NCBI RefSeq assembly: GCF_011043775.1
Contig: NZ_JAAKXY010000007.1
Coordinates: forward strand, 62,001-126,000
DNA: 64,000 nucleotides
Origin: Natronolimnobius sp. AArcel1
GTDB taxonomy: Archaea; Halobacteriota; Halobacteria; Halobacteriales; Natrialbaceae
Direction of reading: 5' to 3'
Within the stretch, counting starts at the first letter, position 1, and every line of letters begins with the position of its first letter. Of this stretch, positions 51,113-53,332 are shown piece by piece. The position numbers were made by a program, and so were the translations under genes. The notes below the pieces were generated by a model. The model did not search any database. It was not told where the DNA came from and worked only from the letters and a program-made list of their open reading frames with translations.

Positions 51113-51346
51113 ACGTGGAGATAGCTTCTATTCAGAGTTGCAGGAAGTTCAGCTTTTAGGTTGGATGGGTTAGATATATGGGACTGTCAATCGCTTTCTG
51201 GCAACCAGTGCTTCAGTAGTGCGTTTAGTGTGGAGGGGCTCTGTTGAAACCCTCTCCTTTAGAGACTTATTCACATGAATCTACTGCACACTACACGCGC
51301 AAACTGAACATGAAGGGTTATACACAATTGCCATCTCTCTGTTCAT

Positions 51347-51658
51347 ATGAGAAGGCGGGAGTTCGTTGCAGTTGGCTGCTGTTCTGTTTGTGGAATTAGT
51401 GCCGGCTGTCTCGATGAGGACGACTCTGATTCTGTCCCCGAGATTGTTAGCTTAGAAGTTCGAAACGATCAACGGGAAGAGAATCACGAGTTTATCGTTC
51501 AAATTGAGGACGAAGAGGGAACCGTGTTCGAAGAGATATATCATCTTGAAGCAGCCGATCCGGGCGAATCCGCCATCGCGCTCGAAGATCCCGTCGAGCC
51601 GGGAGCATATACCGTCCGGGTTGAGGCTGATGAGCACTCCGTGACTGTTGATACGTAA
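51347..51658 (+). CDS. Tat lipoprotein, passenger inside the IS
   Basis: 103 residues: MRRREFVAVG with twin arginines, hydrophobic stretch, and a lipobox ending in ISAGCLDED. The acidic beta-rich remainder (IVSLEVRNDQREENHEFIVQ; LEDPVEPGAYTVRVEA) resembles the product of 52730-53128, so the two form one family of small haloarchaeal lipoproteins. The gene starts 110 bp inside the left inverted repeat, within the duplicated-target boundaries of the IS. Confidence 0.75.
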   Translation: MRRREFVAVGCCSVCGISAGCLDEDDSDSVPEIVSLEVRNDQREENHEFIVQIEDEEGTVFEEIYHLEAADPGESAIALEDPVEPGAYTVRVEADEHSVTVDT

Positions 51659-51828
51659 GACCGTGTCACAGACGATCAAACGTGTATCCGTTTGCAATTC
51701 TATCTAAGTTCTGAAACCCTCCATAGTGAATATCAATTGTACGACCAATGTGAGTGACACTTGAAATGTAGACGGATTCACAGGGTGTTACTGTTCATCC
51801 GAACGTTAGGTGTACTATGTACTGGTCG

Positions 51829-52628
51829 TTAGATGGCTCGGTCAAGATTGTGGACGATACACGCAAGGGCGAGTTCACGAAACTGCTTCCACCAGCGTCG
51901 TGAACGAACGAACGCAACGTATTTTCGCTTGAGTCGAGAGTTCACCGTTTCACTCTGGCTCTGTTGGCCGCAGAGTTCAGTCTCCAACCGAGCGTTCCAC
52001 GCTTTCTGCAGTGAGGAAAACTCACGGTGTTTGATCAGCGGACGAACTCCGTTCTCGCGGGCCATCCGCCGAATTTGCTGATCATCGTATCCCTTGTCTC
52101 CAAGCAGAACTTCGATTTCAGATGCGTTTCGGTTGATGAGTGATGGGGTGATGTGGATATCGAGGATAGCGTTCGCTCTGGTATCGACTAAGAGCGTGAC
52201 TTTCAGTTGCTGAATCGTCAGCTTCGTCCGTTTCGTGTAGTGTTTCGAGGCGTGACTGCGGTCAAACCCTGAGGCGTCGATCCCCGTAACACCGTTAGTT
52301 GGGAGCAGTGACACAGAGAGGTTGAGAAGCACTCGCCAGACGGCCATATCGAGCCGGTCAAACGCTTTGCATAGCGTTGACGGCGCAGGGAGTTCGGTGA
52401 GGTTGATCGCACTTCGAATGCGGGGCATTTCGATGAGTTCGTCGAGGAGTGTATGATACGTTGTGTTCTTCCGAACTTTGAGACAAAGGAGAACGATGTG
52501 CTGATGGAGCGTGTAGCGTTGTTTCGAGAATTTCGAAGAGTATCGAGCTACAGCACGTTGTGCTAGCTGAAATGCTTCCTCGACAAATCGGAGCAGTCGT
52601 GACTTCGGGAGAGTCTGAATTCGGTCAC
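51829..52628 (-). pseudogene. IS5-family (ISH1/ISH11-like) transposase, probably frameshifted near its start
   Basis: The main frame (51829-52428 from ATG) encodes the DDE core: VTGIDASGFDRSHASKHYTKR (first Asp), EVLLGDKGYDDQQIRRMARE (second Asp), ETVNSRLKRKYVAFVRSRRW (Glu). Conserved N-terminal sequence (TLPKSRLLRFVEEAFQLAQR and the following helix) continues upstream in the same frame to about 52629, but there is no start codon in that frame. A GTG (rc of 52626-52628) lies one base out of frame, so loss of a single A at GAATT would explain it. Full length would be about 266 residues, typical of the family. Confidence 0.72.
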
Positions 52629-52729
52629 ACTACTGGCCAAACGTGTATCTTCTCAAGGATTTCAACAGAGCCTGTGGAGGTAGAACTGAGTGATGAATCG
52701 AAGAGAAGGGGGCTAATCTGTCTCTCAGG

Positions 52730-53128
52730 TCAGCAATCTTGATACGAATTGATCGATGGCGGATTGAATCCTCCAGAACTGCCAATTTCGAAGCGAACGA
52801 TGACACACAGTTCATCACCGTCCGCATGTTCTGTCGTGTCGATTTCCTGTTCACCGTCAGTGGTGACGGCTCTGACGAGATAGCGACCGGAACTATCGAC
52901 AGGGGATTTCTCGCTGATCTCCGATCCAGGCTCAACAGTATACGTCTCCGAAAAACGAGTTTCTTCGCTCTCAACGACGATTACGTCGATTTCTTGCCTC
53001 TCACTGTGGCGGTTCCGAACAGAAATTGCATCCAACATCGGCTCTGCTGGTTCGTCGTAAGGAGACATACAACCAGCCATACCGAGAAAAGAACCGCCAA
53101 CCATCGCCAAGAGGGCACGTCTCTGCAT
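52730..53128 (-). CDS. Tat lipoprotein, relative of the IS passenger
   Basis: 132 residues: MQRRALLAMVGGSFLGMAGC (twin arginines, lipobox GMAGC), then an acidic beta-rich domain (AISVRNRHSERQEIDVIVV; TVEPGSEISEKSPVDSSGR) parallel to that of 51347-51658, and a C-terminal extension ending in NSYQDC. It sits between the right end of the IS and a solo inverted repeat at 53316-53332, reading away from that repeat as the passenger reads away from the left end of the IS. Confidence 0.7.
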   Translation of the reverse strand: MQRRALLAMVGGSFLGMAGCMSPYDEPAEPMLDAISVRNRHSERQEIDVIVVESEETRFSETYTVEPGSEISEKSPVDSSGRYLVRAVTTDGEQEIDTTEHADGDELCVIVRFEIGSSGGFNPPSINSYQDC

Positions 53129-53315: not shown

Positions 53316-53332
53316 AGGATTTCAACAGAGTC
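53316..53332. repeat. solo terminal repeat of the IS5-like element
   Basis: AGGATTTCAACAGAGTC matches the right inverted repeat of the IS (AGGATTTCAACAGAGCC) at 16 of 17 positions. No second end or duplicated target is found for it. It marks the remnant of another copy, with a lipoprotein gene on its inner side. Confidence 0.7.

Follow-up and report, generated by a model that had tools for sequence, protein, structure and literature searches.

A decayed transporter-IS-like element of the IS5 family with a lipoprotein gene in its cargo slot in Natronolimnobius sp. AArcel1

Does a lipoprotein gene that lies beside an IS5-type transposase gene in Natronolimnobius sp. AArcel1 belong to the mobile element, and if so, is it a fixed part or an exchangeable passenger? 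Passenger genes in insertion sequences (IS) are usually regarded as rare exceptions. The reading preferred here, with a probability of about 0.8, is that the feature is a copy of a modular haloarchaeal IS5-family transporter IS, whose cargo is reassorted at inner motifs and whose cassettes are moved in trans. The stretch of DNA that was analysed, called the window, is 64,000 nucleotides long.

The element occupies 51237–52672, 1436 bp between its outer tips (Table 1). Its terminal inverted repeats (IRs) are 17 bp long and complementary at 16 of 17 positions, with one mismatch, and the identical octamers directly outside them form a perfect 8-bp target-site duplication (TSD). The repeats, the span, the octamers and a lipoprotein ORF at 51347–51658 between them had been reported in a preliminary description, and all were recovered. 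At one mismatch or fewer, the IR pattern occurs in the 64-kb window only at the two ends of the element and at one solo IR (53316–53332). The IR/TSD structure is not a product of chance, because the pattern has more than 150 matches in 18 further genomes and none with a reversed control pattern, and because 80 TSD-bearing copies were observed in the wider set of relatives against about 0.07 expected by chance. A candidate relic of an old far end inside the element (51706–51721, TGAAACCCTC) was set aside, since these positions code for part of the lipoprotein and are kept in relatives.

Table 1. Features of the element in the window
Feature	Position	Strand	Remarks
TSD, left copy, TGTGGAGG	51229–51236		same as 52673–52680
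Terminal IR, far (cargo-side) end, GGCTCTGTTGAAACCCT	51237–51253	+	
Far-end module: IR and conserved subterminal sequence, type TTTAGAGA..TTATTCACATGAATCTACTGCACACTACACGCGC	51237–51300	+	also found at this end in relatives with different cargos
Passenger gene, Tat-type lipoprotein family	51347–51757	+	136 codons in relatives; here reads only to 51658
Premature stop, passenger codon 104, CAA to TAA	51656–51658	+	
Inner junction motif CGACCAGTACATAG, directly after the transposase stop; boundary of the cargo slot	51815–51828	−	
IS5-family transposase frame, open, ATT for ATG, 30-bp in-frame deletion	51829–52620	−	longest ATG ORF 51829–52428
Transposase-side end module: IR and about 35 bp	52621–52672	−	52-bp near end kept in TSD-bearing relatives
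Terminal IR, transposase-side end, GGCTCTGTTGAAATCCT	52656–52672	−	
TSD, right copy, TGTGGAGG	52673–52680		

The position of the perfect TSD, exactly at the outer IRs, bears out the earlier proposal that the whole segment, with the lipoprotein gene, moved as a single unit. A homologous lipoprotein gene directly adjoins the element (52730–53128) and could suggest that the passenger is a host gene beside a separate IS, with outer repeats and octamers that are coincidental or derive from two insertions. This explanation is hardly credible given the placement of the TSD and the occurrence of the same far-end module before other cargos and before the same gene in Natrialba magadii. No empty site, with the flanks of the window element joined, was found among the loci tested.

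The transposase is of the DDE, IS5 type. It matches PF01609, and the NF033579 (IS5 family) profile, with a cut-off of 140 bits, scores 145.3 bits on the truncated window ORF and 220.6 bits on an intact paralogue; with the IRs and the TSD, these matches uphold the initial assignment to IS5. Close relatives carry the names ISHla2 and ISHxa2 in annotation. One reading frame stays open over 263 codons, beginning at 52620 and ending in the stop at 51829. The frameshift near the start that had been suggested is absent; the gene has instead lost its ATG, replaced by ATT, and 30 bp in frame, removing ten codons (TTRKHDSQIA region, about 52146/52147) that 273-residue relatives have. In cis the window copy seems to be dead, and it is probably immobile by itself because its transposase is without a start codon and ten residues.

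Movement would probably depend on intact transposases elsewhere in the genome. Mobilization in trans, as had been suggested, is plausible, with two intact 273-residue transposases of the same clade present (C5 and C7). The C5 copy (L008) has a gene for a 128-residue membrane protein in its slot. The copy at C7:213-2696 carries a BAT/HTH_10-type regulator and a 114-residue protein within a perfect ATTTATTC duplication; an HTH_10/BAT-like regulator is also the cargo of the Haladaptatus copy L031. The genome further contains two transposase-less IR pairs, one of 791 bp at C7:29866-30656 with a 129-residue PAS-like protein and the duplication GAGAATTT (8/8), and one at C1:633385-634081 with a 134-residue lipoprotein and without a duplication.

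The passenger is damaged as well. The full-length gene of Natrialba magadii and three other genomes is cut short in the window, the intact end being equivalent to 51757. Both genes of the window copy are therefore broken, the transposase by the loss of its ATG and ten codons and the lipoprotein by a nonsense mutation. Among five copies of the lipoprotein dN/dS is 0.10–0.30, so the family has been under constraint. The predicted fold is an 8-stranded beta sandwich (structure prediction, pLDDT 85), of which the truncation takes away the last two predicted strands. Comparison of the predicted structure with the PDB gave no match below E 0.001, with TM scores of at most 0.44, so that the fold points to no particular function.

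The lipoprotein of N. magadii is 86% identical, and its spacing from the corresponding end, 110 bp, is also the same. Recurrence of the lipoprotein at the same boundaries, proposed earlier as a check, is thus found as to gene, distance and end, and the transposase is missing from the N. magadii cassette. This cassette, on pNMAG02 (NMAG_RS19905), matches the window element starting at the far tip and continuing across the lipoprotein as far as the inner motif, after which a short end of its own with an IR replaces the transposase; its TSD agrees at 7/8 positions. Homologues of the lipoprotein are also present outside intact elements, with free copies in genomes G037, G047 and G110. These may be decayed cassettes and not true donor loci, because the G037 copy shows a faint decayed end with 5 mismatches, a weak signal given a null expectation of 0.28 for six mismatches or fewer.

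Relatives of the element came from two sources: a scan of 84,980 species genomes, which supplied 80 loci, and a search of the 391 genomes of the class, 151 of which contain a close transposase, which supplied 100 further loci. Each element was delimited by its two IRs. Both ends were found in 125 distinct elements, out of 183 copies in Halobacteria. The transposase of 273 codons is intact in 117 of the 125, and 64 have an 8-bp TSD, every one matching at 8/8 positions. Because the other 61 have both IRs and no TSD, some of their far ends may be mis-assigned; the set restricted to elements with a TSD gives the same result. The clade appears to be active, as read from the TSDs, the intact genes and the elements in multiple copies.

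The slot between the last transposase codon and the far tip measures 289–3148 bp in the 125 elements and is never shorter, and an empty slot was found in none of them. Its contents fall into 98 cargo clusters by blastn grouping, which reflects nucleotide similarity and may split distant homologues. A passenger is the rule in this clade and not an oddity; the view that it is unusual does not hold where all 125 delimited relatives have slot content. The passenger status given to the lipoprotein in the preliminary description stands, as the same far-end module precedes other cargos in relatives. A role of the lipoprotein as an accessory to transposition that helps the element would agree with the presence of DNA in the slot of every delimited copy. 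However, the slot gene lies on either strand, copies hardly ever have related genes in the slot, and this lipoprotein is truncated in the window copy and has its homologues outside intact elements, which makes an accessory role very improbable.

Two known types of element can be compared with these structures. Like a transporter IS (tIS), the window element has a passenger unrelated to transposition inside its IS ends (the lipoprotein here, 98 cargo clusters in the clade); the functional transposase of its own that a tIS has is wanting, ATG and 10 codons having been lost. The window copy is thus a decayed member of a tIS-like clade. Mobile insertion cassettes (MICs) consist of cognate IRs and a gene, with a TSD and no transposase. 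This structure was found at C7:29866-30656, L270, L271, L274 and L275, and the window copy differs from it in that a broken transposase is still present. L273 (N. magadii C1:2117151-2117275) is a 125-bp miniature element, with ends, no cargo and a perfect 8-bp duplication (AATTCAAC).

The ends and the slot of these elements are joined by recurring sequences. On the transposase side, 52 bp are conserved ahead of the ATG, and at the far end the 17-bp IR is joined by about 45 bp whose sequence depends on the end type, of which there are a few. Behind the transposase stop is an inner motif with the variants CGGTCAATACAG, CGACCAGTACAG or TGCTGAATACAG; its core, RRTAHAG, is loose and occurs at 51 of 98 transposase-side junctions versus 31 of 1971 control windows. 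The motif was rejected as an independent genome-wide repeat: there are only three matches in its own genome, and since two of them are close to family IRs, the motif belongs to the element ends. In transposase-less cassettes it is located about 45 bp inside the end, and the autonomous form therefore looks like a cassette with a transposase between end and motif.

The content of the slot turns over faster than the transposase itself. Cargo is common to 4 of 429 pairs of elements with transposases 90–97.5% identical and to 48 of 51 pairs at 97.5% or above; for elements with a TSD, the counts are 0/133 and 6/8, respectively. Elements L061 (Halobaculum saliterrae) and L219 (genome G127) have cargo that is 95% identical with transposases at about 75% (74%) and far subterminal sequences at 50–59%. 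Identity jumps within ~22 nt after the last sense codon and falls again in the far-end module, and the pairs L045/L099 and L151/L160 follow the same trend. In L037 (Haloferax larsenii) and L228 (genome G327), the backbones are identical up to TGCTGAATACAG on both sides and the cargo is unrelated; in L151/L165, the backbones are identical into the inner motif, again with unrelated cargo. Since the same cargo is found on other backbones and the same backbone with other cargo, with junctions at the motif, cargo is exchanged as a bounded module, and these alignments show that cargo and transposase modules reassort between elements. With a different, cleanly exchanged gene in nearly every relative, the family is therefore a swap-in carrier of single genes and not a plain selfish element.

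Most of the main cargo ORFs encode small multi-pass membrane proteins or lipoproteins. These make up 62% of cargos of 50–250 residues versus 13% of flanking ORFs under the same crude scoring; with stricter ORF filters the difference shrinks from 61% versus 17% to 30% versus 15%, and the excess is not significant in the strictest, smallest ORF set. Host genes among the cargos encode archaetidylserine decarboxylase, a PLP enzyme, TrmO, thioredoxin, PHO4, a formate/nitrite transporter, TrmB and BAT regulators, and sensor kinases. Defence genes are not enriched among the cargos and the window copy is truncated, and the selectable or persistence role once suggested for the passenger finds no support. 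No match was found for phage carriage. The family's ends enclose a phosphatidyl/archaetidylserine decarboxylase-type gene in L280 (G176:C1:1380229-1382121), next to a transposase whose C-terminus looks damaged.

Host genes of this diversity (archaetidylserine decarboxylase, TrmO, thioredoxin, phosphate transporter, BAT-type regulators) would be expected from Pack-type capture, in which gap repair or template switching in the course of transposition copies host genes into the space between the ends and each cargo is a new acquisition. Yet the cargos are whole genes and not fragments, and where nearly identical cargos recur on unrelated backbones the junctions are the same, which points to the exchange of existing cassettes. 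Pack-type capture is a rather improbable account of the slot and may explain the first origin of the cassettes.

Exchange could also proceed through a dedicated reaction that is site-specific for the inner motifs and catalyzed by the transposase or another recombinase, in an integron-like manner and not by general recombination. The junctions fall at the inner motif on both sides in the independent pairs L037/L228, L151/L165 and L061/L219, the motif is enriched at the junction and takes the same place in transposase-less cassettes, and the shared stretch is, on some sides, short for ordinary homologous recombination. Such a reaction is nevertheless unlikely, as no candidate recombinase was identified, the motif is loose with several end types, the whole far end can go along (L106/L108), and end modules of 45–64 bp plus the transposase leave some room for homologous recombination. 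We are doubtful of the broader proposal of a haloarchaeal gene-cassette economy, in which one IS5-type transposase family is in charge and single genes framed by inner motifs pass as precise cassettes between autonomous elements and transposase-less carriers, through a reaction specific to those motifs; if true, it would be an integron-like archaeal route that shuffles genes for small surface and membrane proteins across families.

The preferred reading, a modular transporter IS, would work as follows. An element is ordered as IR with ~35 bp, transposase, inner motif, one gene (sometimes two), second inner motif, ~45 bp and IR. The transposase would recognize both outer ends and move all that lies between them, producing the 8-bp duplication, and would presumably also move, in trans, cassettes with ends and a gene. 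Cargo and transposase modules are reassorted between elements at the inner motifs, probably through recombination between copies, so that each lineage soon holds an unrelated gene, in most cases one for a lipoprotein or a small membrane protein. With its lipoprotein, the window copy moved as a unit; later its transposase lost ten residues as well as the start codon, and a stop arose in the passenger gene. Unit movement, modularity, reassortment and the cassette forms are each borne out at the level of sequence comparison.

The clade is best read, by analogy, as an archaeal system of transporter ISs and cassettes resembling IS231-MIC231 of Bacillus in another IS family. In IS231/MIC231 (IS4 family, Bacillus cereus group), DNA with passenger genes lies between one IR and the transposase (De Palmenaer 2004, as cited in PMC2266710, PMC3129680; PMC1196294). 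The likeness extends to passenger DNA beside the transposase, a wide range of sizes, transposase-less cassettes with the same ends and a modular build. IS231 is an IS4-family element of Bacillus with 10–12-bp duplications, whereas the haloarchaeal clade is IS5, has archaeal hosts and makes 8-bp duplications; unlike IS231, it has cargo in every delimited copy, very fast turnover and junctions at inner motifs. As of 2008, modularity of the IS231 type was unseen in other IS families (PMC2266710). The ISsaga paper (PMC3129680), which covers transporter ISs, citing the IS1595 family, and mobile insertion cassettes, describes passenger genes unrelated to transposition and bounded by IS ends, as here; tISs are described as individual elements, whereas the haloarchaeal clade reassorts cargo as a whole.

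Within haloarchaea, ISHla2 (Halorubrum lacusprofundi) and ISHxa2 (Halopiger xanaduensis) belong to the same transposase clade and also have a gene on the slot side; annotation puts the element name on the transposase only and calls the slot gene a hypothetical protein. Hlac_3088 is a transposon passenger gene of Halorubrum lacusprofundi that is highly expressed in virus infection, reported as a single case without a family-wide slot (PMC10544981). It is probably the cargo of L204/L282 (Halorubrum lacusprofundi, G173:C1:341790-343593), matched by description and replicon. That copy has a 273-residue transposase and a 233-residue cargo protein with a PGF-CTERM-like tail, and halophilic archaeon DL31 has an identical cargo gene on one of its replicons. 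In the deletion-coupled insertions of Haloquadratum walsbyi, unrelated sequences are swapped at the exact same position by an unknown mechanism; those are chromosomal and up to 104 kb, whereas the exchanges of the present clade lie inside a small transposable element (PMC3119063). A limited literature search turned up no report of such a slot, exchangeable and common to a whole family, in archaea; an earlier description is possible.

With a slot that is never empty and contents that turn over fast, the clade provides haloarchaea with a route for the transfer of single genes that is ongoing and can be measured. It is also a clear test case for the entry of cargo into small transposons, and many of the small membrane proteins and lipoproteins that stand as orphans in haloarchaeal genomes may be cargo of transposons, unrecognized in annotation.

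A solo terminal repeat, GACTCTGTTGAAATCCT, is located at 53316–53332 (−) with one mismatch, a full end module and an inner motif, upstream of the neighbouring lipoprotein gene (52730–53128, −). A second element around this gene, with its left end near 51175, was rejected because its TSD-like match is within chance. The neighbour may have been carried by another element of the same family, now decayed, with the window element inserted next to its 3′ end. The neighbouring lipoprotein is 34% identical to the passenger.
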